From: an uncultured Bacteroidota bacterium
GTDB taxonomy: Bacteria; Bacteroidota; Bacteroidia; B-17B0; Aurantibacillaceae
Length of the DNA stretch: 64,000 nt
Assembly: GCA_937873155.1 (NCBI GenBank)
Contig: CALMVZ010000011.1
Span: forward strand, 124,001-188,000
Reading direction: 5' to 3'
In this document: one piece after another, positions 11,977 to 56,317 of the stretch
Numbering within the stretch: position 1 is the stretch's first letter
Layout: each line of letters starts with the position of its first letter
Notes under the pieces: model-generated
Databases searched by the model: none
What the model was told of the DNA's origin: nothing
The model's input: the letters and a program-made list of their open reading frames with translations, nothing else
Program-made: the position numbers and the translations under genes

Positions 11977-12256
11977 CAGATTAACCCAGGTTTATGGGCG
12001 TATTAATTTTTTCAATATTTATTCAGTTCATGTGTTAGTTGAAGGTTAACAAAACGAAAATATAAAATTTACTTATGGTAAATTCTTTGTGCATTATATA
12101 ACCATTCGGTAAATTGTTGCTAATGTTCATATCATGCTAAAAAGGAAAATTTGTAAAACCCCACTAACGTGAAATGAAGCTGAAATTTTGTTATAACAAT
12201 TCCCTGAATACATCAAGCTTCATTCCATGCGGCCTTAACAGGAAAATTTTATACGC

Positions 12257-38591: not shown

Positions 38592-39069
38592 TGATTCCGT
38601 TCTCTAATTTATTTAATGCCCCTTTTATTGCATCAAAGTTCGGGACTTTTCCGGCGTCCTCTAAAACTTCAGCGTATTTAATTATTCCTTTTTTATCAAT
38701 AACGAAAGCCGAACGCTTTGCAACGCCTTTCATTCCCAAAATGAATTCAGAATATAACGAACCGTAGGCTTCCGACACTGTTTTATTCCAATCTGACAGC
38801 AATTCGAAATTCAAATTCAAACTCTCCTTGAATTTTTTCAGAACAAAATGTGAGTCGTTCGAGATCCCGAATACAAGAGCATTCACTTTGTTATAGAACT
38901 CCAGGTCATCGCGTGTAGCGCAGAGTTCAGCGGTACATGTACTCGTAAAAGCCAGTGGAAAGAACAACAATACTACATTCTTTCCTTTATGCTCTGATAG
39001 GGTGATGGTTTTCTTTTCCGTGTTAACCAGCTTAAAATCAGGCGCTTGATCATTTATTTGCAAACTCAT
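38581..39069 (-). CDS. Peroxiredoxin, AhpC/TSA family (BCP/AhpE-like)
   Basis: 162 residues, thioredoxin fold. It reduces hydrogen peroxide and organic peroxides. The peroxidatic motif reads AFTSTCTAELC (about residues 40-50), with the threonine and cysteine in the TxxC arrangement; the second cysteine five residues on could be the resolving one, as in some BCP enzymes. FFPLAF is the preceding strand. The C-terminal residues ENGITLS are encoded by an intergenic palindrome, so the end of the protein has been replaced or extended by repeat DNA. It is divergent from a second peroxiredoxin, suggesting shared oxidative-stress control. Confidence 0.9.
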   Translation of the reverse strand: MSLQINDQAPDFKLVNTEKKTITLSEHKGKNVVLLFFPLAFTSTCTAELCATRDDLEFYNKVNALVFGISNDSHFVLKKFKESLNLNFELLSDWNKTVSEAYGSLYSEFILGMKGVAKRSAFVIDKKGIIKYAEVLEDAGKVPNFDAIKGALNKLENGITLS

Positions 39070-39130
39070 ATCGAATTTTACTTAATATAGAATAAGGCGT
39101 AAATAATTTCTGTTTAAGCAAAGTAAGTGA

Positions 39131-39138
39131 TAATTTTG
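39131..39138 (+). promoter_or_regulatory. -7 box for the 2-Cys peroxiredoxin gene
   Basis: TAATTTTG fits TAnnTTTG and lies 35 bases before the ATG. No clear -33 TTTG is seen, as expected if an activator helps this promoter. Confidence 0.5.
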
Positions 39139-39173
39139 TAGTCTGTTTTATAAACTTAAAAACTCTTAATAAT

Positions 39174-42952: not shown

Positions 42953-43273
42953 TTATTGGATCGGGCTTAAACTTATATCTGTATTAAAGCCTAAATCGTT
43001 GGTTTTGAGCTTTGCCTGCTCGTAACCTACAACATTTGCTTCAATATCTTGCTTCGCGTCTGCGCTAACTGATAAAATGTATTTTCCGTTCAGATCAGTA
43101 TAACAATAAGTGTTTGTTCCTTTTACTTCTACCTTAACCCCGGTTAAAGCTTCACCAGTAACTTTATCAATCACTTTACCGCATAATACTTTTTTACCCT
43201 TATCGCTATTAGAGGCGTTTACGGTTGTGAGTCCTAAGAATAATGTAACCAGTATGATTATTGCGTGTTTCAT
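42953..43273 (-). CDS. Small secreted carboxypeptidase-regulatory-like (CarboxypepD_reg) protein
   Basis: 106 residues from the ATG at 43273; a TTG at 43294 would lie upstream of the -7 box. Signal peptide about 1-20 (AIIILVTLFLGLTTVNAS). The rest is one transthyretin-like beta sandwich: CGKVIDKVTGEALTGVKVEVKG, then YCYTDLNGKYILSV. The same fold forms the N-terminus of SusC/TonB receptors, but here it stands alone. Possible half-sites of the phosphate-type operator lie upstream in the right phase, so it may belong to that regulon. Confidence 0.8.
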   Translation of the reverse strand: MKHAIIILVTLFLGLTTVNASNSDKGKKVLCGKVIDKVTGEALTGVKVEVKGTNTYCYTDLNGKYILSVSADAKQDIEANVVGYEQAKLKTNDLGFNTDISLSPIQ

Positions 43274-43283
43274 TTTACTGATA

Positions 43284-43338
43284 CAAAGCAACAAACTTTG
43301 TATATAGTTACAATTAAGTCGCCATTACGAAATTGTTA
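43284..43338 (-). promoter_or_regulatory. Weaker candidate for the 11-bp phased operator, minus strand
   Basis: On the minus strand, TAAC, TAAT and TAAT begin at 43338, 43327 and 43316. A degenerate fourth site (ATAT) at 43305 lies 18 bases before TTTG (43287-43284). The phase agrees with the five stronger arrays, but the ATG is only about ten bases beyond the box. Confidence 0.45.
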
Positions 43339-43444: not shown

Positions 43445-44128
43445 CTAAAATTCAAACTTATACCCTACGCCTTTTACGGTTTTTATATTGTCTTCTCCTA
43501 ATTTTTCCCGGAGTTTACGAATATGTACATCAATAGTACGGTCTCCAACAACAACCTCATCGCCCCAGATCCTTTCCAGGATAAATTCGCGGGTAAAAAC
43601 TTTGCCGGGTTTTGAAACTAAAAGTTCCAATAATTTAAATTCTTTTTTAGGCAGCATTATTTCTTTGCCCGATTTAAATACAAGGTATTTTTCCAGGTCG
43701 ATCTTTAATTCACCGAACTCCTGTACCTTTTCAACTTTTGGTGTATTATTACCTACTCTTCTTAATAATGCTTTAATACGGCTGATGAATACACGCGGTT
43801 TAATTGGTTTGGTTATGTAATCATCCGCTCCGGAATCAAATCCTGCAATTTGTGTATAGTCTTCGCTACGTGCGCTTAAAAACACAATTAATAAATTAGA
43901 TAGTTCTTTGTTTTCGCGCATGATCCGGCAGGTCTCAATGCCATCCATCTCCGGCATCATTACATCGAGGACAATTAATTGCGGCTTATGTTTTTTTGCC
44001 AAGGCAATTCCATCATGGCCATTAAGTGCAGTGTAAACTTCGTAACCTTCTTTTTTCAGATTGTAGGACAGGAAATTTAGAATATCCTCTTCATCATCTA
44101 CCAATAATATTCTGTTAGTATCACTCAT
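43445..44128 (-). CDS. OmpR/PhoB-family response regulator
   Basis: 227 residues. The receiver domain has D11-D12, phosphoacceptor D55, S85 and K107 (YITKPIKP), so phosphorylation chemistry is intact. The winged-helix output domain covers about 130-227 (LPKKEFKLLELLVSKPGKVFTREFILERIWG in pieces; RTIDVHIRKLREKLG; KTVKGVGYKFE). It is divergent from the TonB receptor gene, whose promoter carries tandem 11-bp-spaced half-sites, the type of array bound by PhoB-like dimers. It is the best candidate in the window for the protein that reads those sites. No cognate kinase is adjacent. Confidence 0.93.
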   Translation of the reverse strand: MSDTNRILLVDDEEDILNFLSYNLKKEGYEVYTALNGHDGIALAKKHKPQLIVLDVMMPEMDGIETCRIMRENKELSNLLIVFLSARSEDYTQIAGFDSGADDYITKPIKPRVFISRIKALLRRVGNNTPKVEKVQEFGELKIDLEKYLVFKSGKEIMLPKKEFKLLELLVSKPGKVFTREFILERIWGDEVVVGDRTIDVHIRKLREKLGEDNIKTVKGVGYKFEF

Positions 44129-44210: not shown

Positions 44211-44265
44211 TAACCTTCTGTTAACATTAAAATTAAGATATCCTTAAATACGAAGCCGTCTTTTG
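44211..44265 (+). promoter_or_regulatory. Phased operator array and -7 box of the TonB-dependent receptor gene
   Basis: Half-sites TAAC, TAAC, TTAA and TTAA start at 44211, 44222, 44233 and 44244, exactly 11 apart. TTTG of the -7 region (GTCTTTTG, 44258-44265) starts 18 bases after the last. There is no -33 TTTG, which suits activator-dependent transcription. Confidence 0.7.
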
Positions 44266-44283
44266 TGTTTTAATTATTGGCCC

Positions 44284-47181
44284 ATGACTAAGTTTTTTTC
44301 TTTTCTATTTATATGTTGCACATTTTACAGTTTTTCCCAAACCGGAAAAATAACAGGCAAGATCATCGATGCAAAGACCGGTGAAACATTACCGGGTGCC
44401 ACCGCGGTTATTGAAGGCACAACAAAAGGTGCAAGCGCTGATTTCGATGGAAATTTTTCTTTGAATAACGTTCCTGCGGGTAAAATAAATATTATCTTCA
44501 GTTATATCTCGTACGACTCCAAGAAATTTACTGATGTAGAAGTAAAAGCAAATGATGTCACCAACATTAATGTACAATTAGAGCCTTCTTCCTCAACCAC
44601 TTTTTCGGAGGTAGTAATTGTAGTAGAGATGCTAAAAGAAAATAATGCCGCCTTAACCTTAATGCAGAAAAACAATATTAGTGTGAGCGATGGTATTTCC
44701 GCCGAAACCATTAAGCGCACTCCTGATAAAAGCACAAGTGATGTTTTAAAGCGCGTCAGCGGTGCCAGTATTCAGGATAATAAATTTGCTATTATCAGAG
44801 GTTTAAATGAGCGTTATAATATTGCTTATATAAACGGAGCGCCTCTGCCAAGCTCAGAAAGCGACCGTAAAGCATTTTCGTTTGACATTTTTCCATCTAA
44901 CATGTTAGATAATATTATTATTACCAAAACCGCAAGGCCCGATTTGCCCGGTGAGTTTGCCGGAGGTATTATTGAGATCAATACTAAAAGTATTCCCGAT
45001 AAAAATTTTATTTCACTTACAGCGGGTGCAGGTTACAATACAATTACAACCGGTAAAGAACAGGTTTATTACAAAGGCGGGAAAACAGATTGGTTGGGAA
45101 TTGACGACGGCACAAGAGCTTTGCCACCCGGAATTCCTGAATACGGGTCATTCTCTAATGATATTCATAAAAACGCGCAACTGGCTCAAGAAGTTAACAC
45201 GGGTGACTGGCGTATTTACAAAAGGAAATTTGATCCCAATACTTCCTTTCAAATTTCAGGAGGATATAATATAAAGCGTAAGGATCGCGATTTTTTTGGC
45301 ATTCTTGCGTCTGTATCTTATAATAAGACGAATAGTTATTTTACAACTAAACGAAACACTTACGATAATAGTCCTTCAATAGATATTCCTTCCTTGCAGG
45401 TAAGGGATTATTTAGATAAAACATATTCTGAACAAACTTTAGCCGGGGCTTTGCTTAATTTATCCTGTAAGTTAAATGAAAATCATTCGATAAGCTTAAA
45501 AAACTTATTGAGTGTGAATTCGGATGACAGAACAGTAAGGCGTGATGGTTCAACCAATTTAGCTGAAGCTAATCCAAGTATACTTAAATCACATACTTTC
45601 TTCTTTACAACAAACCGTATTTTTTCAAGCCAGCTTATTGGCGATCATTACTTACCTAAATCAAAGATAAAATTCACATGGATTGGATCTTATAGCGATG
45701 TAAAAAGAGAAATACCAAACTTAAGAAACATCATCTATACCCGCTTTAAAACTTTCAATGATCCAAGCGATCCATATCTGTTTGATACAGTTTATCAGGC
45801 AAACATGTCAGGCTCTGTTGTTGGCCCTGCTTACAGTGGAGGTATGTTTTGGTCGACTAACACCGAGTCTGTTAAAAGTTTTAAAGGCGACATATCAAGA
45901 TTATTTAAGATCAGTGAAAATTTTAAAACAGATATTAAAATCGGTGGCTTTGCACAAAAAAGAAACAGAAGTTTTAAATCGAGACAATTGGGTTATACAA
46001 CTTATGGTCAGGCCGGACAAGCTTATCAATTTAAAGATAGTCTGCTTTACCTTAGCGAAAATGAAATCTATTCGCAACAGAATATGGGAGCTTTGTATCC
46101 CGGAACACCTGGTGCTGGTGGATTTAAATTAAAAGATGCCACAAAAAATTCCGACAGGTATTTAGCATCCTCCACTTTAATAGCGGGATACTTAATGTTT
46201 AATTCCTCTTACAAAGAATGGGTTAGATTAGTTTTTGGCGCCCGTGTTGAAAGTTACAACCAAACCTTAAACGCAAAAAGAGATACCGGAGATACGCTCT
46301 CAACAGATACAACAGTTGTAGATATATTACCATCAGTTAATTTAATTTTTTCAATTACGCCAAAACAAAATATACGTTTAAGCTATTCGAAAACCATAAA
46401 CAGACCGGAATTCAGGGAGATTGCTCCATTTGCATTTTATGATTTCAATACACAATATGTTTTTCAGGGTAACGATACTATTCAAAGATCCATTATTCAT
46501 AATTACGATTTAAGATATGAATTGTTTCCCGGTCGCGGACAGTTAGCTTCTGCTTCTGTATTTTACAAACAATTTAAAAATCCAATCGAACAAGTTCTTT
46601 TAACCGGAAATGGGAACAATGATGAGTTAGCATATAGTAATGCGCTGGGTGCTACTAATTATGGTTTTGAAATTGAATACAGAGTTATTCCGGGAGCACT
46701 TTTAAAAATGGATTCCTGTAAGTTTCTAAATAATTTATCTCTGTTTACAAATTTTGCTTACGTAGTTTCTAAAGTAGATCTAAGCAATGTGAATGGTGCA
46801 GAAGATCGACCGCTACAAGGCCAATCTCCTTACGTAGTTAATGGTGGCGTTTCCTATATTGATAATGATTATGGATTTAGTATCAGTGCTGTTTACAATA
46901 GAGTTGGTCGCAGAATTTATTTTGTAGGGAATGTTAGAGAACCTCATTTATGGGAGGAGGGCCGGGATGTGCTGGATTTCCAATTCACTAAATCATTCTT
47001 AAAAAATAAATTGGATATACGTTTCACTATAAAAGACGCTTTGGCTAAAAAACAACAACAGTACTTTTATCAGAATAATGTCGCCGGAAAAAGCGAGAAA
47101 CTTGAAAAAGGAGTTGACGATATGATCTGGATAAATACATTTGGCACAACTTACTCGTTCCAATTGTCGTTTAGATTTTAG
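44284..47181 (+). CDS. TonB-dependent outer-membrane receptor
   Basis: 965 residues from the ATG at 44284; an earlier in-frame start at 44263 falls inside the -7 box. Signal peptide about 1-18. A carboxypeptidase-like sandwich follows (GKIIDAKTGETLPGATAVIEG, residues about 23-100). The plug starts with TPDKSTSDVLKRVSGASIQD and contains RGLNERYNIAYINGAPLP and the barrel entry PGEFAGGIIEINTKS. A 22-strand-type barrel ends in the aromatic residue F (TYSFQLSFRF). It imports a ligand with TonB energy. Context (Pit, OprP-type porin, phased operators) suggests a phosphate-containing ligand, but no substrate motif proves that. No SusD partner is adjacent. Confidence 0.92.
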   Translation: MTKFFSFLFICCTFYSFSQTGKITGKIIDAKTGETLPGATAVIEGTTKGASADFDGNFSLNNVPAGKINIIFSYISYDSKKFTDVEVKANDVTNINVQLEPSSSTTFSEVVIVVEMLKENNAALTLMQKNNISVSDGISAETIKRTPDKSTSDVLKRVSGASIQDNKFAIIRGLNERYNIAYINGAPLPSSESDRKAFSFDIFPSNMLDNIIITKTARPDLPGEFAGGIIEINTKSIPDKNFISLTAGAGYNTITTGKEQVYYKGGKTDWLGIDDGTRALPPGIPEYGSFSNDIHKNAQLAQEVNTGDWRIYKRKFDPNTSFQISGGYNIKRKDRDFFGILASVSYNKTNSYFTTKRNTYDNSPSIDIPSLQVRDYLDKTYSEQTLAGALLNLSCKLNENHSISLKNLLSVNSDDRTVRRDGSTNLAEANPSILKSHTFFFTTNRIFSSQLIGDHYLPKSKIKFTWIGSYSDVKREIPNLRNIIYTRFKTFNDPSDPYLFDTVYQANMSGSVVGPAYSGGMFWSTNTESVKSFKGDISRLFKISENFKTDIKIGGFAQKRNRSFKSRQLGYTTYGQAGQAYQFKDSLLYLSENEIYSQQNMGALYPGTPGAGGFKLKDATKNSDRYLASSTLIAGYLMFNSSYKEWVRLVFGARVESYNQTLNAKRDTGDTLSTDTTVVDILPSVNLIFSITPKQNIRLSYSKTINRPEFREIAPFAFYDFNTQYVFQGNDTIQRSIIHNYDLRYELFPGRGQLASASVFYKQFKNPIEQVLLTGNGNNDELAYSNALGATNYGFEIEYRVIPGALLKMDSCKFLNNLSLFTNFAYVVSKVDLSNVNGAEDRPLQGQSPYVVNGGVSYIDNDYGFSISAVYNRVGRRIYFVGNVREPHLWEEGRDVLDFQFTKSFLKNKLDIRFTIKDALAKKQQQYFYQNNVAGKSEKLEKGVDDMIWINTFGTTYSFQLSFRF

Positions 47182-47575
47182 CCCTATTTGCCTTTAATTT
47201 TATTAAAGTAGTGTGTAGAGAAGCCACTATTTCTATTCCGCGCTTTGCTGTATGTTTTAATTTTAATTCAGGATACTGATATTTCAATTCCTTATTGACA
47301 TTCTTATAATCCTTGTTAAACTCACATACATTATTGAACAATGCCTTTTTTAGTTTGCTTTTAAATATGTGGCTTTTTTTATACTCCTGCTTTAAAGTCT
47401 TTATGCAATCAGATAACTTAGGTTTAACTACGCTTAATTGAATCTTTTCCTCAGAAGCAATTTGTTTTAATGCTTTTGTAATAAGTGATTGCGATAAATA
47501 AGCAGACTCAATATAAAAATGTTGAGTATATGCCTTTTTGTTTTTTTCAATCAGTTCTTTGATGCTTAATGCCAT
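47171..47575 (-). CDS. Hypothetical protein, convergent with the TonB receptor gene
   Basis: 134 residues from the ATG at 47575 (an in-frame start at 47593 adds six residues). Lysine-rich and helical, without signal peptide (SIKELIEKNKKAYTQHFYIESAYLSQSLITKALKQ in pieces). The pattern of two long helices with EKNKK and a polar face faintly recalls HEPN-type helical bundles, but I see no RxxxxH motif. Its last 11 bases overlap the 3' end of the receptor gene. Probably a cytosolic gene that happens to lie within the cluster. Confidence 0.6.
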   Translation of the reverse strand: MALSIKELIEKNKKAYTQHFYIESAYLSQSLITKALKQIASEEKIQLSVVKPKLSDCIKTLKQEYKKSHIFKSKLKKALFNNVCEFNKDYKNVNKELKYQYPELKLKHTAKRGIEIVASLHTTLIKLKANRAKI

Positions 47576-47705
47576 AAAATTTTGTTTGTGCAAATATGTT
47601 AATTTATTTATATAGTAATTGTAAAATATAAGTTAATTAAATATTATGAATGTATTGTTTGCATCAATTTAATTATCCGAATTCAGTTGGTTTTATCCTT
47701 TCACG

Positions 47706-47782
47706 TAACCTCCACGTAATTTAAGAATAATCATTTACTAACCAGGTGTTAACCAGAAGATAAATTGTTTGAGATTACTTTG
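47706..47782 (+). promoter_or_regulatory. Six-fold phased operator array and -7 box of beta-helix gene 1
   Basis: TAA triplets begin at 47706, 47717, 47728, 47739, 47750 and 47761: six half-sites with a strict 11-bp period. The -7 box TTACTTTG is at 47775-47782, its TTTG starting 18 bases after the last half-site. The ATG follows 24 bases later. Confidence 0.8.
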
Positions 47783-47805
47783 TGGCAACTAAAAAAAATA
47801 AAATC

Positions 47806-49449
47806 ATGAAAAGAATTTACCAAACATTATTATTAGCATTATCGCTAGGTGCAGCAACAGCGCAAACTGCTTTCTGGACACCAACTACCTACAAAGGTGC
47901 ATTTGATTGCTCTACCAACATGTGGACTGACAATTGGACAAACTTTGATCCTCAGAACACAAACTATCCGGCTCCAACGATGACCGTTAGTTCAAACATT
48001 ACTTCAAACACAACTTGGGCGACAGGCCAAACTGTTTTCTTAAATGGTCAGATCTATGTAACAGGTAACTCTGTATTAACTATTCAGCCGGGTGTTGTTA
48101 TTCGTGGTTCTAGTTTAATTGCAGGTTCTAGTTTAATCATTACTAAAGGTTCACAAATACAGGCATTAGGTACAGCTTCTCAACCGATTGTTTTTACATC
48201 TGATAAAGCACCCGGTTCTCGTGGTGTTGGTGATTGGGGAGGAATTATTGTTTTAGGTCAGGCTACAAATAATCTACCGGGCGGACTTGGAAACATTGAA
48301 GGTTTACCAATTGGGTTTAACTCTGAACATGGCGGAACAAATGATAACGACAACTCAGGCACTTTAATGTATGTGAGAAATGAGTTTGGCGGATATCCGT
48401 ACCAGGTTAACAAAGAAATTAATGGTTTTACATTTGGTTCGGTCGGAAAAGGAACAACTATTCATCATTTACAATGCTCATTTAACAATGATGATGCATA
48501 CGAATGGTTTGGCGGTACTGCTGATGCGAAATATTTAGTTTCTTTCCGTGATCTGGATGATAATTTTGATTGTGATAATGGTTTCCGTGGAAATGTTCAA
48601 TTTGGTTTAATTGTACGCGATCCTTCTTTAGCTGATAATCCATCCATTTCAACATCTGAAGGTTTTGAGTGTGATAACGATGCCGGCGGGACTGCTGCAA
48701 CTCCAAAAACCGCACCAGTGTTTTCAAACATCACAGGAATCGGACCATATCGTGGAAGCTCAGCAACTTCTGTAGCTGCAGGTTTCCGTCGTGCGGCTCG
48801 CTTAAGAAGAAATTGTGAAGTGAAAATTTTCAACTCTGTTTTCACAGATTTTAAAAACGGTTTATTTGTTGATGGAACTGCTGCTGATGCTAATGCAGGA
48901 ACAGGGACTCTTAAATTCAGATTTAATGTTATTGCCACAACATCCGGTGTTACACCTAAAACTATTGAAACAACTACTGCTAACATAGTGGTTAACCCAA
49001 CATGGTTTGCGTCACAACCTAACGATTCATTAATTACCACTTCGGGCTTATTAGTTAATCCCTATAACTACACTGCCGGAGATTACCGCCCGGTTTGTAC
49101 AAACACATTATTGACAGGTGGCGCTAACTTCAGCGATCCTGCTTTTGTTGGCGGTGGAATTACCGGTGTTACAACTATTGATAACGCAATAAGAAATTCT
49201 GCGCTATTTCCAAATCCCGGTAGCAATGAAACAAACTTATTTATCTCTTCTGAAAGTTCGTTTGATCTAAGTGTGCAAATATTATCGGTTACAGGTCAAT
49301 TAATTGCCACACCCTATAACAAAACAACAATTAACGAAGGTTATAACAGTTTACCAATTAATACATCTGAATTATCAACAGGTATTTATTTTGTTTCTGT
49401 ACAATACGGTACAAAAAGAGAAACTATTAAGTTGGTGATTACAAAGTAA
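47806..49449 (+). CDS. T9SS-exported right-handed beta-helix-like surface protein, paralog 1
   Basis: 547 residues from the ATG at 47806; the GTG at 47782 lies in the -7 box. Signal peptide 1-20 (ends ATAQ). The mature protein has repeated short strands with N and G ladders (ILTIQPG-like VLTIQPGVVIRGSS; FTSDKAPGSRGVGDWGGIIVLGQ), typical of parallel beta helices. An acidic metal-binding-like stretch follows (FRDLDDNFDCDNGF; EGFECDNDAGGT). The last 80 residues are a T9SS type A tail (FPNPGSNE...GIYFVSVQY). Function unknown. About 80 percent or more of positions look identical to the next gene, so this is a tandem duplication. The shared operator suggests induction with phosphate uptake genes. 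Confidence 0.88.
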   Translation: MKRIYQTLLLALSLGAATAQTAFWTPTTYKGAFDCSTNMWTDNWTNFDPQNTNYPAPTMTVSSNITSNTTWATGQTVFLNGQIYVTGNSVLTIQPGVVIRGSSLIAGSSLIITKGSQIQALGTASQPIVFTSDKAPGSRGVGDWGGIIVLGQATNNLPGGLGNIEGLPIGFNSEHGGTNDNDNSGTLMYVRNEFGGYPYQVNKEINGFTFGSVGKGTTIHHLQCSFNNDDAYEWFGGTADAKYLVSFRDLDDNFDCDNGFRGNVQFGLIVRDPSLADNPSISTSEGFECDNDAGGTAATPKTAPVFSNITGIGPYRGSSATSVAAGFRRAARLRRNCEVKIFNSVFTDFKNGLFVDGTAADANAGTGTLKFRFNVIATTSGVTPKTIETTTANIVVNPTWFASQPNDSLITTSGLLVNPYNYTAGDYRPVCTNTLLTGGANFSDPAFVGGGITGVTTIDNAIRNSALFPNPGSNETNLFISSESSFDLSVQILSVTGQLIATPYNKTTINEGYNSLPINTSELSTGIYFVSVQYGTKRETIKLVITK

Positions 49450-49462
49450 ATTAACTGATTTA

Positions 49463-49491
49463 AAAAGCCCGTTGAATTCAACGGGCTTTTA
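49463..49491 (+). terminator. Terminator after beta-helix gene 1
   Basis: AAAAGCCCGTTGAA (49463-49476) pairs perfectly with TTCAACGGGCTTTT (49477-49490), followed by ATT. Confidence 0.9.
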
Positions 49492-49568
49492 TTCCTTCAT
49501 TTCAAAAAGTAAATTTTTCACTTATGTAACTATTAAACCTTTTATTTCAGCGTACCGGGATGTTTTGT

Positions 49569-49645
49569 TAATGTTCTCTTAATTTAAGGGTAATTATTTA
49601 CTAACAAACTCTTAATCTAAAGCTAAACATTGTGAGGTTACTTTG
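49569..49645 (+). promoter_or_regulatory. Six-fold phased operator array and -7 box of beta-helix gene 2
   Basis: TAA triplets begin at 49569, 49580, 49591, 49602, 49613 and 49624, exactly 11 apart. The -7 box TTACTTTG (49638-49645) has TTTG 18 bases after the last, the same geometry as the first paralog. The ATG at 49666 follows 20 bases later. Confidence 0.8.
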
Positions 49646-49665
49646 CTTAAATAAAACTTAAAATC

Positions 49666-51324
49666 ATGACGAAAATTTACACATCATTACTGCTTTTTAC
49701 CCTTTGGTTATCCAATGGGTCGGCCCAAACAGCTTTTTGGAATACAACTACGTACAAAGGTGCATTTGATTGCACTGCACCTATGTGGACGGACAACTGG
49801 ACAAATTGGGATCCCCAGAACACAAACTATCCAGCACCAACTATGACTGTGAGTGCTAACATCACAACAAACACAACATGGGCAACAGGTCAAACTATTT
49901 TATTAAATGGACAGATCTATGTTACTAATAATGCTATTCTGACTATTCAGCCCGGAGTTATTGTAAGGGGTTCAAGCATGGTGGCAGGTTCAAGTTTAAT
50001 TATTACAAAAGGTTCACAAATTGATGCGCAGGGAAATGCGTTAAATCCTATTGTGTTTACATCTGATAAAGCTGCCGGCTCCCGAGGCGTGGGTGATTGG
50101 GGCGGAATCATTTTGTTAGGCGACGCTACTAATAATTTACCCGGCGGACTTGGAAACATTGAAGGTTTGCCAATTGGTTTAACTTCTGAACACGGCGGAA
50201 CTAACGACAATGATAATTCGGGAACACTTGCTTACGTTAGAAATGAATTCGGAGGATATCCTTATCAAGTTAATAAAGAAATTAATGCTTTCACTTTTGG
50301 TTCGGTGGGAAAAGGAACATCTATTCATCATTTACAAAGTTCATTTAATAATGATGATGCTTTCGAATGGTTTGGCGGAACAGTTGATGCAAGGTACCTG
50401 GTTTCATTCCGCGATCTGGATGACAATTTTGATTGTGATAATGGATTCAGGGGCAATGTTCAGTTTGGTTTAATTGTACGAGATCCCACTTTAGCTGACA
50501 ACCCAAGCATATCAACTTCTGAGGGATTTGAATGTGATAATGATGCAGGAGGAACAGCGGCTACACCACAAACCCAGGCTGTGTTTTCGAATATAACTGC
50601 TATTGGACCTTATCGCGGAAGTTCTGCAACATCAATTGCTTCCGGTTTTAGAAGAGCGCTTCGTTTACGAAGAAATGTGGGTCTTCGCGTTTTCAATTCT
50701 ATTTTCATGGACTTTAAAAACGGTTTGTTTGTAGATGGAACTGCTTGTGACGCAAATGCAGGAAATGGTATACTTAAATTTAAATACAATGTTATAGCAA
50801 CCACATCCGGCGTTACCCCTAAAACCATTGAAACAACAACTGCTAATACAATAGTAAATCCAACTTGGTTCTCATCTCAGCCAAATGATTCTTTAACTAC
50901 AACATCAGGATTATTGATGATCCCTTATGGTTCAACTAATAATTATACGAATCCTGATTATCGTCCGGTTTGTACAAACACTTTAATTAACGGTGGTGCT
51001 GATTTTACAGATGGTGCATTTCTGGCAGGAGGAATAATCGGAATAAATGAAATTGAAAATAACATTAGTCACGTTTTAGTATATCCTAATCCGGGCACAA
51101 ACAATGTTACGGTCTCAATAAACAGTCATACGAATACAAAAATTAACATGGCTGTTTACAATTCAATCGGACAGCTCATCGATGACTCTTATTTGAATAT
51201 AAATGTTGAAGCAGGAAGTAATGAATTACAAATTAATACAACACAACTAACGGGTGGTTTATATTTTATTAACATTCAAAATGGCATTAAAACAGAAACT
51301 GTAAAGTTGGTTGTAAACAAATAA
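49666..51324 (+). CDS. T9SS-exported right-handed beta-helix-like surface protein, paralog 2
   Basis: 552 residues. Signal peptide about 1-21 (ends GSAQT). It is collinear with the preceding paralog over the whole helix region, including GVGDWGGIILLGDATNNLPGG and the acidic stretch FRDLDDNFDCDNGF. Divergence concentrates in the T9SS tail (VYPNPGTNN...GLYFINIQ) and near residue 430, where this copy has a short insertion (GSTNNYTN). Its own operator and terminator make it a separate unit. The strong conservation of the acidic loops suggests a bound cation, perhaps for phosphate or polyanion capture; that is inference only. Confidence 0.88.
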   Translation: MTKIYTSLLLFTLWLSNGSAQTAFWNTTTYKGAFDCTAPMWTDNWTNWDPQNTNYPAPTMTVSANITTNTTWATGQTILLNGQIYVTNNAILTIQPGVIVRGSSMVAGSSLIITKGSQIDAQGNALNPIVFTSDKAAGSRGVGDWGGIILLGDATNNLPGGLGNIEGLPIGLTSEHGGTNDNDNSGTLAYVRNEFGGYPYQVNKEINAFTFGSVGKGTSIHHLQSSFNNDDAFEWFGGTVDARYLVSFRDLDDNFDCDNGFRGNVQFGLIVRDPTLADNPSISTSEGFECDNDAGGTAATPQTQAVFSNITAIGPYRGSSATSIASGFRRALRLRRNVGLRVFNSIFMDFKNGLFVDGTACDANAGNGILKFKYNVIATTSGVTPKTIETTTANTIVNPTWFSSQPNDSLTTTSGLLMIPYGSTNNYTNPDYRPVCTNTLINGGADFTDGAFLAGGIIGINEIENNISHVLVYPNPGTNNVTVSINSHTNTKINMAVYNSIGQLIDDSYLNINVEAGSNELQINTTQLTGGLYFINIQNGIKTETVKLVVNK

Positions 51325-51342
51325 AATTAAATATCGCTATTT

Positions 51343-51374
51343 AAAAGCCTGTTTAAAAGTAACAGGCTTTTTTT
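51343..51374 (+). terminator. Terminator hairpin directly ahead of the next gene
   Basis: AAAAGCCTGTT (51343-51353) pairs with AACAGGCTTTT (51361-51371), followed by TTT. It ends eight bases before the ATG at 51383, leaving no room for a promoter, so the downstream gene needs read-through or an internal promoter. Confidence 0.85.
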
Positions 51375-51382
51375 AGAAAAAA

Positions 51383-52051
51383 ATGCCATATTCTGCCATC
51401 ATATACTCCGTTAACAATTCTAATTCTGAATTTTACAGGAAAAGTTTAACTAAGCTTACACTTAAGGTTACTAATGTGTATGCTTATGATGACTTTGAAC
51501 GGTTCGTGAAGAATGAAGTATTCGATATCCTGGTGGTTGATCTTGAATTAGATAATACCGATGCCATCACTGTTATAAAAGAGATCAAATCTTTATCCCT
51601 AAAACATCCGCTTCGAATAATTGTTTGTTCAAATAAAGCCGATGACTTTATTCAGATCAGCGCTTTTAATTCAGGTGCCGATGATTTTGTTGATCTTCCT
51701 GTTAACCCAACCGTTTTCGAATCGAAGATCAAGGCTTTGATGAAAAGGATGGAACCTGAAAATGCAGAAAAAGAGAATGGCTACATCTATATTGATCACG
51801 AACGCTATAAGATCATGATAGGTAAAAATGCTTACTCGTTACCAAGATTAGAATTCAGGATGGTGACACTTTTATTCTCGAACCCGAATAAAATATTTTC
51901 GAAAGATGAGATTGCTTCTGAGATCTGGCACAATAAAGATATCTCGTCCAAACGCACAATTGATATTCATATCCGCAACATCCGCCGCGAATTAGGTGAT
52001 GACATCATTAAAACTTACCGCGGACTCGGTTATTGCATAAAGACACCTTAG
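51383..52051 (+). CDS. OmpR-type regulator with degenerate receiver domain
   Basis: 222 residues. The receiver fold is recognisable (FDILVVDLELDNTD with D53; NSGADDFVDLPVNP). However, the acidic pair that binds magnesium is N11-N12 instead of D-D, and the invariant lysine is L105. Only D53 and S83 remain. Phosphorylation as in normal receivers is therefore unlikely. The winged-helix domain (about 125-222) is intact (RTIDIHIRNIRRELG; KTYRGLGYCIKTP). It lies three bases before a Pit permease gene, so it is co-transcribed. It may act as a phosphorylation-independent or partner-controlled regulator of the phosphate genes. Confidence 0.85.
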   Translation: MPYSAIIYSVNNSNSEFYRKSLTKLTLKVTNVYAYDDFERFVKNEVFDILVVDLELDNTDAITVIKEIKSLSLKHPLRIIVCSNKADDFIQISAFNSGADDFVDLPVNPTVFESKIKALMKRMEPENAEKENGYIYIDHERYKIMIGKNAYSLPRLEFRMVTLLFSNPNKIFSKDEIASEIWHNKDISSKRTIDIHIRNIRRELGDDIIKTYRGLGYCIKTP

Positions 52052-52054
52052 TAA

Positions 52055-53455
52055 ATGTTTGGTTTAAGCACGGGCATATTTTTACTCCTCGTTTTCTGCC
52101 TGTTACTGGCCTGCATCTTCGAATTCATTAATGGTTTCCATGATACGGCAAATGCTGTTGCCACCGTCATTTACACCAATACTTTAAAACCAACTATTGC
52201 TGTCGTATGGAGCGGGATCTGGAATTTTATTGGCGTGAACATAGGTGGTATTGCAGTTGCAATGGGTATTGTGAATTTATTACCGGTCGAATTATTAGTG
52301 GATCAAAGTCTGCCACATGGTTTGGCAATGGTGTTTGCTTTATTACTAAGCGCCATCACCTGGAATTTCGGAACATGGTTTGTAGGATTACCTGCTTCCA
52401 GCTCACATGCTTTGATCGGTTCTATTATAGGTATCGGTTTAGCTTATAATTTTATCCCCCACTCTGAAGGTGCTGCTGTTAATTGGGGGAAAGCACAAGA
52501 GATAGGTTTGTCACTTTTAATTTCACCCTTCTTTGGTTTTGCGGCTGCAGTTGCTGTGATGTATCTTTTTAAACGCGTGATAAAGAATGAAGAGATCTAT
52601 AAAGAACCAATTCCCGGAAAAACTCCGCCTTTATGGATACGCAGTATATTAATTGCAACCTGTTCGCTGGTGAGTTTAGGTCATGGCAGTAACGACGGAC
52701 AAAAAGGTGTCGGGTTAATTATGCTGATCCTGATCGGTATTTTACCTGCGCAATTTTCGTTGGATACTTCTTATGAAATTGAAAGGTCTTACAAAAATAT
52801 TGTTATTGTAAATGACCTGATCTCAAAAACTGATCTCTCAAAATTATCTTTTACTGAGATGGCTTTATTGACCAATATAAAAAACAATTGCACTGAGGCT
52901 GAAGCGATATTGAATTCAAAGATCAAAGTGAACGAGATCCCGCTTGAACAACGTTTTGTGATCAGAAAAAACGTTTTAATGATCTCTAAAAATTCCAGGG
53001 TATTGATCGACAAAGGAAATCTAACGGTCTCAAAGAACGATCTGGATACATTGAACACATCATTAAAAGAAATAAAAAGTGTTACCGATTACGCGCCTAA
53101 GTGGGTAACTATTATGATCGCCATTTCGCTTGGATTAGGAACTATGATAGGCTGGAAACGGATCGTGAAAACCGTTGGAGAAAAAATTGGCAAGCAACAT
53201 ATGAGTTACGCACAAGGCGCCAGTGCTGAAATTGTTGCAGCAATTACAGTTGGTCTGTCCTCTTTCAAAGGGTTACCGGTTTCAACAACACATGTATTGT
53301 CATCCGGTATTGCCGGAACAATGGTTGCCAAAAAAGGATTGAAGAATTTACAGAAGAAAACTATCAGGAATATTTTACTGGCTTGGGTATTGACACTTCC
53401 CGTAACAATACTTTTATCAGGCGGATTGTTTCTCCTTTTTAGGGCACTCTTTTAA
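52055..53455 (+). CDS. Pit-family inorganic phosphate permease, copy 1
   Basis: 466 residues, about ten membrane helices. The two inverted signature repeats are present: GFHDTANAVATVIYTN near residue 27 and GASAEIVAAITVGLSSFKGLPVSTTH (in part) near residue 388. A hydrophilic loop of about 110 residues (about 238-348) splits the two halves. The family imports phosphate, usually as a metal-phosphate complex, driven by protons or sodium. It shares a transcript with the degenerate regulator upstream. A second copy lies beyond the porin gene. Confidence 0.93.
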   Translation: MFGLSTGIFLLLVFCLLLACIFEFINGFHDTANAVATVIYTNTLKPTIAVVWSGIWNFIGVNIGGIAVAMGIVNLLPVELLVDQSLPHGLAMVFALLLSAITWNFGTWFVGLPASSSHALIGSIIGIGLAYNFIPHSEGAAVNWGKAQEIGLSLLISPFFGFAAAVAVMYLFKRVIKNEEIYKEPIPGKTPPLWIRSILIATCSLVSLGHGSNDGQKGVGLIMLILIGILPAQFSLDTSYEIERSYKNIVIVNDLISKTDLSKLSFTEMALLTNIKNNCTEAEAILNSKIKVNEIPLEQRFVIRKNVLMISKNSRVLIDKGNLTVSKNDLDTLNTSLKEIKSVTDYAPKWVTIMIAISLGLGTMIGWKRIVKTVGEKIGKQHMSYAQGASAEIVAAITVGLSSFKGLPVSTTHVLSSGIAGTMVAKKGLKNLQKKTIRNILLAWVLTLPVTILLSGGLFLLFRALF

Positions 53456-53488
53456 ATATTTAACCTATTCTTCTTAAAACCAATTGAT

Positions 53489-53563
53489 TAACCTTAAATT
53501 TACTTTGATAACCTTTTCTTAACATTAAGCTTACATTTTGTTGACTTTACGCTGTTTTCTTTG
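53489..53563 (+). promoter_or_regulatory. Phased operator array and -7 box of the porin gene
   Basis: TAAC, TAAC, TTAC and TGAC start at 53509, 53520, 53531 and 53542 (period 11). A further pair, TAAC and TTAC, starts at 53489 and 53500. The -7 box TTTCTTTG (53556-53563) has TTTG 18 bases after the last half-site. Confidence 0.75.
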
Positions 53564-53586
53564 CGTACAATTAACATTAAGTTTAC

Positions 53587-54843
53587 GTGAAACAAAAATT
53601 AAGTTTACTGGTATTTGCGTTTTTCGCAATCCAAACCCTTACAGCACAGGATACTATAACCACTGTTATAAAAGCCACTGAAACCCCAACCGTAAAAGTT
53701 GAAGAAAAAAAAACACACTGGTATGATAAGATCAATATCCGTGGTTATTGCCAGGTACGCTACAATCGTTTAGGAGAATCCAATCCGTTATTAGTTAGTG
53801 AACAAGGCGATAAATCTATTGGTAGTAAGGGAGGTTTTTTTATCCGACGTATGCGCGTCATTATTTTCGGACAAGTAAACGAACATGTTTATTTTTATTT
53901 ACAGCCTGATTTTGCTTCTTCTGCATCTTCAACAGGTTTACATTTCGGTCAGTTGCGCGATGCTTATTTTGATGTGTCGATAGATAAGAACCGCGAATTC
54001 CGTTTCCGTATCGGACAAAGTAAAGTGCCTTTTGGATTTGAAAACCTACAGTCCAGTCAGAACCGTTTGCCTTTGGATCGTAACGACGCCTTGAACTCTG
54101 CTGTATCCAACGAGCGCGATCTTGGTGTATTCTTTATGTATGCTCCTAAAAAAGTAAGGGAGTTATATAGTTCTTTAGTGAATGATGGTTATAAAGGTTC
54201 GGGCGATTACGGTATTTTTGCTTTCGGATTATACAATGGACAAACCGCTAATAAACCCGAATTGAATAATAACTCGCATTGGGTTGCGCGTTTAACCTAT
54301 CCCTTCAAATTAGGTAACCAGGTAATTGAACCGGGAGTCCAAATGTATAGCGGTTATTATACTATGGCAAGCGATCAGTTAACTGCTGCTTCCGGTACAA
54401 AGACCGCTACAAAAACTAATCCAACAAAAGAATATTTGGATGAAAGAATGGCTGCTACATTCGTTCTTTATCCTAAACCATTCGGTATTCTTGCCGAGTA
54501 TAATATTGGTAAAGGACCTGAATACGATATAAACAGGGATTCGATTATAACTAAAGACCTATCAGGCGGTTACGTTACATTAAATTGGATGATAAAGATC
54601 AAAAAACAACTCATTTACCCTTATGTTAGGGGAACAATGTATAAAGGTGGTAAAAAACATGAACTGGATGCCCGTTCTTACGAAGTGCTGGATATAGAAG
54701 GCGGTATAGAATGGCAGCCGGTGAAAAATTTTGAATTCGTTGCGGCTTATATGTATTCTAACCGAACCACCTCTGATAAAGGCAAAGAAAAGAACTATCA
54801 ATTCGGACAACTGCTGCGGTTGCAGGCCCAGCTTAATTTTTAA
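53587..54843 (+). CDS. Phosphate-selective porin, OprP/OprO family
   Basis: 418 residues from a GTG at 53587. Signal peptide about 1-20 (ends LTAQ). A periplasmic linker is followed by a 16-strand-type barrel with family traits: GGFFIRRMRVIIFGQVNEH near residue 80, FRFRIGQSKVPFGFENLQSS near residue 138, and a C-terminal strand ending in F. The family passes phosphate or polyphosphate across the outer membrane. It sits between two Pit permeases and carries one of the clearest phased operators, so outer- and inner-membrane steps of one uptake route are side by side. Confidence 0.92.
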   Translation: MKQKLSLLVFAFFAIQTLTAQDTITTVIKATETPTVKVEEKKTHWYDKINIRGYCQVRYNRLGESNPLLVSEQGDKSIGSKGGFFIRRMRVIIFGQVNEHVYFYLQPDFASSASSTGLHFGQLRDAYFDVSIDKNREFRFRIGQSKVPFGFENLQSSQNRLPLDRNDALNSAVSNERDLGVFFMYAPKKVRELYSSLVNDGYKGSGDYGIFAFGLYNGQTANKPELNNNSHWVARLTYPFKLGNQVIEPGVQMYSGYYTMASDQLTAASGTKTATKTNPTKEYLDERMAATFVLYPKPFGILAEYNIGKGPEYDINRDSIITKDLSGGYVTLNWMIKIKKQLIYPYVRGTMYKGGKKHELDARSYEVLDIEGGIEWQPVKNFEFVAAYMYSNRTTSDKGKEKNYQFGQLLRLQAQLNF

Positions 54844-54847
54844 ACCT

Positions 54848-54891
54848 TAACATTAAATTAACACTCGCCTCTTGAATTAGAAATAGTTTTG
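54848..54891 (+). promoter_or_regulatory. Phased operator and -7 box of the second Pit gene
   Basis: TAAC starts at 54848 and 54859, and a degenerate third site (TCTT) at 54870. The box TAGTTTTG (54884-54891) has TTTG 18 bases after that third position, as in the other arrays. The ATG follows at 54911. Confidence 0.65.
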
Positions 54892-54910: not shown

Positions 54911-56317
54911 ATGTTCGGATTAACCACAGGCCTCGCCATTTTATTAATAGCATGTTTAGCATTAGCATGTTTTTTTGAATTCATTAACGGATTTCATGAT
55001 ACTGCAAATGCGGTAGCTACTGTAATTTACACAAACTCCATGAAACCAACTGTTGCGGTGGTGTATTCAGGCATCCTGAATTTTATTGGAGTACTTACAG
55101 GTGGTATTGCTGTGGCGATGGGAATTGTTAATTTGCTACCTATGGAAGTTTTGGTGGACAACAATGTCAGTCATGGTATAGCAATGATATTAGCCTTGTT
55201 GATCTCTGCGATCATCTGGAATTTCGGTACCTGGTATTTCGGGATCCCGTCTTCAAGCTCTCATACATTGATCGGTTCGGTGATCGGTATCGGTATGGCA
55301 TTTTATTTTTTGCCGGGTGATATGGGACTAAATGCTGTTAACTGGGACAAAGCAAAAGATACCGGTATGGCTTTATTACTTTCTCCATTAGCAGGATTTA
55401 GTTTAGCGATCATTGTGATGTTCGTTTTTAAACGCCTTATCAAAAATGACACGATTTATAAAGAACCAATTCCGGGCAAGCAACCTCCGATCTGGATCCG
55501 GATGATGTTGTGGACAACCTGTGGACTGGTAAGCTTTTTCCATGGACAAAATGACGGACAAAAAGGTGTAGGTATTTTAATGATGATCTTAATAGCGATC
55601 TTGCCCGGCCAATTCTCATTAGATGAAAAAGTGAATTTACAAAGCGTTGAAGGAAATGTGTTTGAAATTCAAAAGATCATTGCTGCTACTGATACAAGTC
55701 AGTTCGGTAGTGATGAATTCAAGAATTACCGGAATGTAAAAAAACATGCTGCTTCTTATGCAGCCATTGTAGGAACAACAAATACCCGTGCTTCCGAAAT
55801 TGACATTGCACAACGTTTTAATGTCAGAAAAGATATCGTGAAAATTACTAAAGGAGCCGAGAAATTATTGAAGAGTCCGAACTTTGCTATCTCGCTAAAA
55901 GATTCAAAGAAACTGAAAGCAGAGATTAAAGACGCAAAATTATTGGTAGAGTTCGCGCCGAATTGGGTAATTATTTTAATTTCCATTTCATTAGGATTAG
56001 GCACAATGATAGGCTGGAAACGAATTGTGAAAACCATCGGAGAAAAAATTGGTAAGCAGCACATGAGTTACGCCCAGGGCGCAAGTGCTGAGATCGTTGC
56101 TTCGGTTGGTATCGGCATGGCGTCCGCTTACGGGTTGCCTGTTTCAACAACACATATGCTATCTTCAGGTATTGCAGGTTCCATGGTAGCGAAAAAAGGA
56201 TTAAAGAATCTTCAAAAAAAGACTATTACGACTATCGCATTAGCCTGGGTACTTACTTTACCTGCGACAATTTTAATGTCAGGCGGATTGTTCTTACTAT
56301 TCAGAGCTATTCTTTAG
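54911..56317 (+). CDS. Pit-family inorganic phosphate permease, copy 2
   Basis: 468 residues with the same layout as copy 1: GFHDTANAVATVIYTN near residue 27, PSSSSHTLIGSVIG near residue 117, and PVSTTHMLSSGIAGSMVAKK near residue 410. The central soluble loop (about 240-350) is much less conserved between the copies than the membrane parts, which suggests different control rather than different transport. It has its own operator and a terminator downstream, so the two permeases can be expressed independently. Confidence 0.93.
   Translation: MFGLTTGLAILLIACLALACFFEFINGFHDTANAVATVIYTNSMKPTVAVVYSGILNFIGVLTGGIAVAMGIVNLLPMEVLVDNNVSHGIAMILALLISAIIWNFGTWYFGIPSSSSHTLIGSVIGIGMAFYFLPGDMGLNAVNWDKAKDTGMALLLSPLAGFSLAIIVMFVFKRLIKNDTIYKEPIPGKQPPIWIRMMLWTTCGLVSFFHGQNDGQKGVGILMMILIAILPGQFSLDEKVNLQSVEGNVFEIQKIIAATDTSQFGSDEFKNYRNVKKHAASYAAIVGTTNTRASEIDIAQRFNVRKDIVKITKGAEKLLKSPNFAISLKDSKKLKAEIKDAKLLVEFAPNWVIILISISLGLGTMIGWKRIVKTIGEKIGKQHMSYAQGASAEIVASVGIGMASAYGLPVSTTHMLSSGIAGSMVAKKGLKNLQKKTITTIALAWVLTLPATILMSGGLFLLFRAIL

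Follow-up and report, generated by a model that had tools for sequence, protein, structure and literature searches.

Tandem 11-bp half-site arrays at phosphate genes of Bacteroidota: a candidate PHO box in fixed phase with the -7 TTTG

The promoters of a phosphate gene cluster in a Bacteroidota bacterium carry tandem T(A/T)A half-sites with a period of 11 bp, set in phase with the -7 TTTG of the promoter core. These arrays are very likely PHO boxes of Bacteroidota, predicted to be bound by the PhoB-like response regulator encoded at 43445–44128 on the reverse strand of the window, the 64,000-nucleotide stretch that was analysed (G000:C11:124001-188000, from a 4.85-Mb genome). That the box is a property of the phylum, with one case in Ignavibacteria, and consists of four to six PhoB half-sites of the TTAACATT type which replace the -33 element at a fixed distance of 18 bp from the -7 TTTG, allowing the Pho regulon to be read from sequence, appears probable. 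To our knowledge, few operators have been defined for Bacteroidota regulators outside the polysaccharide systems, and phosphate scavenging by Bacteroidota is important in soil, sea and gut. If the phylum-wide box is real, its regulon would include genes of unknown role, both for secreted proteins and for lipid remodelling. A rule as strict as period 11 and offset 18 from TTTG would allow the Pho regulon to be predicted in many genomes, would suggest candidate functions for unknown secreted proteins, and would show cleanly how an activator can take over from the -33 element in the unusual promoter of Bacteroidota.

The PhoB-like regulator is a member of the OmpR family (Response_reg and Trans_reg_C), and its gene is divergent from that of a TonB-dependent receptor with CarboxypepD_reg and plug domains (44284–47181, forward strand), syntenic with Fjoh_0545, which adjoins phoB. 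Farther along the forward strand lie the genes of a beta-helix-type T9SS-sorted protein (FII-like, 47806–49449) and its 75% identical paralogue (49666–51324), followed by RR2, a second OmpR-type regulator with a degenerate receiver and without an array of its own (51383–52051), the phosphate transporter Pit 1 of the PHO4 family (52055–53455), a member of the phosphate-selective porin O/P family (PF07396, 53587–54843), and Pit 2, likewise of the PHO4 family (54911–56317). A small secreted CarboxypepD_reg-like protein (PF13715, start set at an internal ATG from the sequence) is encoded at 42953–43273 on the reverse strand. Elsewhere in the window, the gene of a PlcP-like calcineurin-type phosphoesterase (PF00149/PF12850, 12257–13078, forward strand) overlaps that of a glycosyltransferase (PF13528, 13075–14166, forward strand). 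The cluster of PhoB, receptor, helix protein and second regulator is retained in relatives, and at a locus of the same genus (L074) Pit 1 is followed by an OprP-like protein and then by PstS, PstC and PhoU. A search of the bacterium's own genome revealed no PhoU-domain protein; because PhoU is missing, Pst is probably missing as well, and the phosphate signal route would therefore differ from that of E. coli.

An earlier note, made from the window alone, had placed arrays in five promoters, and they are present at all five positions that it gave. The two beta-helix promoters (47706–47782 and 49569–49645, both forward) each contain, as described there, six TAA half-sites with an exact 11-bp period (47706–47761 and 49569–49624), the last of them 18 bp ahead of the TTTG at 47779 and 49642, respectively. 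The second scores 29.6 bits with a weight matrix that was trained in part on the promoters under question. As both stand upstream of paralogues, they are not independent evidence. The receptor promoter (44211–44265, forward, TTTG at 44262) had been credited with four half-sites, of which two are strong (TAAC at 44211 and at 44222, 8.9 and 6.2 bits), but the other two are weak (TTAAG at 44233 and TTAAA at 44244, 0.7 and 1.5 bits) and in phase only as TTA, their TAA coming 1 bp late. For the promoter of the OprP-type porin (53489–53563, forward, TTTG at 53560), the description of four half-sites (TAAC 53509, TAAC 53520, TTAC 53531 and TGAC 53542) plus an offset pair at 53489/53500 stands, with TGA as the last; this promoter, which lies outside the training set, reaches 23.2 bits, and its architecture recurs in the relatives L072 and L074. 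The Pit 2 promoter (54848–54891, forward, TTTG at 54888) has two real half-sites, at 54848 (-40) and 54859 (-29), and a degenerate -18 position (TCT), again as described; its score of 8.6 bits is weak alone, and the -40/-29 pair recurs in L073. A spacing of exactly 18 bp, asserted for all five, is thus borne out with a good half-site in two promoters, with a weak one in the receptor (TTA) and the porin (TGA), and with a bad one in Pit 2. None of the five has a TTTG 27–29 bp before the -7 TTTG, so that the reported lack of a -33 TTTG is confirmed, and a half-site at -29 occupies that place. Of the Bacteroidota housekeeping promoter elements -7 TAnnTTTG and -33 TTTG, these promoters have the TTTG of the former and its TA in part, and the latter is absent.

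The five promoters do not form the full set, since a blind matrix scan of the window returned two more. One precedes the PlcP-like/glycosyltransferase operon (12099–12153, forward; half-sites 12099, 12110 and 12121; TTTG 12150; 13.0 bits), the other the small secreted protein (43284–43338, reverse; half-sites 43338, 43327 and 43316; TTTG 43287; 12.2 bits), and the layout of the latter recurs in L072. At the promoter of phoB itself in the window the matrix scan gave no anchored array of at least 8 bits; three distant phoB-like genes do have an anchored array upstream. RR2 promoters carry no array.

Conservation within the family was followed in a footprint aligned on the TTTG that most closely precedes the start codon. 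At -18, -29, -40 and -51, T(A/T)A is present in 67–89% of 18 receptor promoters, and at the positions from -18 to -73 in 50–91% of 22 helix promoters, as compared with 0–12% in 52 background regions. The TAA columns are retained while the spacers vary among relatives, and 204 units yield a directional half-site consensus n(T)TAACATTnn, in which C or T is preferred as the base following TAA. The geometry was further examined in 80 loci from named genomes (Pedobacter, Mucilaginibacter, Chitinophaga, Chryseobacterium, Hymenobacter, Segetibacter, Sediminibacterium and others, plus Ignavibacteria), which provided 74 receptor promoters, mostly outside the matrix training set. No matrix is needed to see that 37 of these 74 orthologous promoters have T(A/T)A at four of four positions with period 11 and offset 18. 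In a grid of periods 8–14 and offsets 8–29 every other pair counts at most one, except for 22 at (11,29), which is the same array shifted one step up. The full pattern at (11,18) is found in other genes in only 5 of 853 cases. With the matrix, a score of at least 10 bits is attained by 63 of 77 receptor genes, 6 of 7 PlcP-like genes, 23 of 81 helix genes, many of which are probably co-transcribed, and 17 of 865 other genes, those tested among the 17 including a Porin_O_P, a phosphodiesterase and a TonB-type receptor. Control geometries (period 10 or 12, offset 15 or 23) gave 0–2 matrix matches. One Ignavibacteria locus (L211) scores 21.6 bits.

Family after family, the array recurs at the TonB receptor/beta-helix cluster by phoB, at the OprP-type porin, which stands ahead of pst-phoU in relatives, at PlcP and at MauG, and the neighbouring genes are almost without matches. 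It is present in 17 of 30 promoters orthologous to that of the PlcP-like gene, with none in the control geometries. Ten named whole genomes contain 15 matches to the exact pattern against 3 in the reversed control, and the matches precede receptors, PlcP-like enzymes, Porin_O_P and a di-haem peroxidase of the MauG family. The association of the array with phosphate-acquisition genes extends across lineages, and from sequence their control by it is putative. In other bacteria, the pair of PlcP-like enzyme and glycosyltransferase converts phospholipids to glycolipids (PMC4796936). The transcriptome of F. johnsoniae, compared through orthology of genes, provides a link to phosphate itself: there the orthologues are induced 40- to 1000-fold under phosphate depletion, with log2 values of 8.0 for the receptor, 9.9 for FII, 8.6 for PlcP, 9.6 for MauG and 5.4 for the glycosyltransferase, and the value for PhoB is 3.1 (PMC8115612). 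On the other hand, the OprP gene Fjoh_0542 is not induced in F. johnsoniae (PMC8115612), which counts against the PHO-box reading, as do the missing PhoU and the lack of an anchored array at phoB. A PHO box of this lineage, as the earlier note had it, is nevertheless the best reading, in that the array marks phosphate genes whose orthologues respond to phosphate in F. johnsoniae.

PhoB is the likely binder because its gene adjoins the array in one family after another, its recognition helix VGDRTIDVHIRK hardly varies among box-bearing lineages, PhoR lies beside PhoB in relatives (L080 and L122), and the present genome has an intact PhoR orthologue (63% identity), unlinked from PhoB at G000:C10. 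The recognition helix presumably resembles that of E. coli PhoB. The best NCBIfam matches of the protein are PhoB models, TIGR02154 and NF053854, with 224.5 of 296.2 and 217.4 of 270 bits, and these scores below the equivalogue cut-offs count against the reading. It seems unlikely that the arrays are instead bound by another OmpR-family regulator, RR2 or an unlinked paralogue in the first place, which would answer to a signal other than, or besides, phosphate. RR2 is indeed co-located with the beta-helix gene in most family members, direct repeats are common for OmpR-family proteins, the clusters of L079, L081 and L084 hold only a stand-alone DNA-binding domain, and a related motif of Riemerella is noted as ArcA-like (PMC9603813). 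Yet the array is kept in clusters that have PhoB and no nearby RR2 (L113, L116 and L126), its targets elsewhere are phosphate genes without RR2, and RR2 combines its degenerate receiver with a different and more variable recognition helix. The RR2 receiver reads SV for DD and LP for KP; since the acidic pair and the lysine are missing, RR2 probably works independently of phosphorylation, and the family has kept it next to the beta-helix gene. The stand-alone domains, seen in one genus, are winged-helix domains of 99–101 amino acids without a receiver (L079 11522–11818, L081 10849–11145 and L084 9075–9377), located between receptor and helix gene, a place taken by full regulators in other genomes.

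A structural origin of the periodic TAA, as phased AT-rich DNA, curvature or a UP-like element that binds RNA polymerase, is very improbable. Upstream elements rich in AT are widespread, and the helical repeat is close to 11 bp, but the period is exactly 11 rather than 10 at some steps and 11 at others, the consensus of the half-site (TTAACATT) is directional, with its preference for C or T after TAA, and the array is found at phosphate genes and not at the 865 neighbours. Curvature was rejected on the exact period and the gene specificity.

The chance level was estimated by looking for strict T(A/T)A runs after dinucleotide shuffling (n = 2000); a shuffled background had been proposed in the earlier note. 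The helix and receptor runs are rare there (P = 0.0005 for the first helix promoter, 0 of 2000 shuffles reaching a run of six for the second, and 0.019 for the receptor), but those of the porin (0.14) and Pit 2 (0.42) are ordinary. By the strict-run rule the porin and Pit 2 arrays are not significant alone; they are supported nonetheless because their architectures recur in congeners and the porin scores highly with a matrix not trained on it. The longest period-11 run in 169 upstream regions of the own genome is four, reached in four regions, and a matrix scan of 400 kb of sampled stretches of this genome, taken as background, found no site of at least 10 bits. A genome-wide search for period-11 runs before TTTG had been suggested earlier with three half-sites as the minimum. 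The exact pattern of four half-sites plus TTTG occurs 4 times in the 4.85 Mb, always in promoters of this cluster. With three half-sites there is no enrichment, 11 occurrences standing against 9 in the reversed control, and both this pattern and a TWAC pattern were rejected as genome-wide markers for want of specificity. That AT-rich intergenic DNA simply yields such runs by chance, as the three-half-site counts and the ordinary porin and Pit 2 runs might suggest, can practically be dismissed given the 400 kb without a 10-bit match and the 37 of 74 promoters against at most one in the grid, and for arrays of four to six sites it is ruled out by the matrix counts and the geometry grid. The array is far beyond chance, and the weaker promoters prove it only via their relatives.

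It can be envisaged that upon phosphate starvation the unlinked PhoR would phosphorylate the PhoB-like regulator, which would then bind along a single face of the DNA in head-to-tail order, each 11-bp half-site taking one protomer. As 18 bp separate the last position of the array from the -7 TTTG, the -29 half-site would lie where the -33 element is missing, and PhoB may replace -33 recognition by contacting sigma. In E. coli and Bacillus, activators contact sigma in place of the upstream element. If protomers follow one another every 11 bp on a single face, with a half-site at the -33 place, such a substitution by PhoB is the most likely arrangement, and we infer that it would activate transcription. 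The number (2 to 6) and quality of the half-sites may set affinity and strength. Predicted targets are the TonB receptor, the two secreted beta-helix proteins, the OprP-type porin and Pit 2, to which the PlcP/glycosyltransferase operon and the small secreted protein may be added.

The principle of an 11-bp direct-repeat PhoB/PhoP operator is known already, the E. coli PHO box consisting of head-to-tail direct repeats with this period (PMC4415409). The likeness to E. coli PhoB sites drawn earlier holds for the 11-bp direct repeats and for their place upstream of the promoter core, where they replace the upstream sigma element. It does not hold for the half-site, which is CTGTCAT in E. coli and TTAACAT here and which, judged by sequence, is closer to the PhoP motifs of Bacillus and Riemerella; up to six units, the Bacteroidota -7 TTTG anchor and the lack of PhoU in the genome are further differences. 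In activated Pho promoters, the Bacillus subtilis PhoP box reportedly comprises TTAACA-like units, usually four, at intervals of about 11 bp; for this box PMC6232261 refers to Liu and Hulett (1998). A TTAACA-like half-site in about four copies is found here too, in another phylum, with another sigma factor and promoter core, and in fixed -18 phase to TTTG. Within the phylum, PhoP of Riemerella anatipestifer, which is induced by phosphate starvation, has a DAP-seq core TTTAACA equal to the present half-site; its 583 peaks include many unrelated to phosphate, and the accessible part of the report describes neither a tandem 11-bp array nor a promoter phase (PMC9603813). The supposition that the box had not been described must be narrowed accordingly to the tandem geometry. 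PhoB of Bacteroides fragilis binds the phosphate-regulated pstC promoter on a 512-bp fragment in which no site was defined (PMC3547664). The PUSIV/phoBR cluster of F. johnsoniae, with PhoB, TonB receptor and beta-helix-type protein, is strongly phosphate-repressed, and the accessible part of that report mentions no operator (PMC8115612). No description of the tandem form of four to six units, of its TTTG phase or of its spread within the phylum turned up in the literature searched, subscription journals lying outside that search.

In the window, four T(A/T)A also follow one another with period 11, without a TTTG anchor, in the divergent promoter region between two peroxiredoxin genes (39069–39173). 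Four Chitinophaga loci (L151, L157, L188 and L209, at about 6.4–7.0 kb) have the array at a gene of 131–148 amino acids between the PlcP-like gene and the receptor; the product from L188, the only one of the four tested, gave no Pfam match. In the own genome, four TTAAC/TAAC units with period 11 (15.5 bits) lie at L217 (G000:C2:12447-12501, forward strand), where the anchor reads TTTC and a TTTG follows a few bases on; the secreted protein of 106 amino acids encoded downstream is a possible further target.
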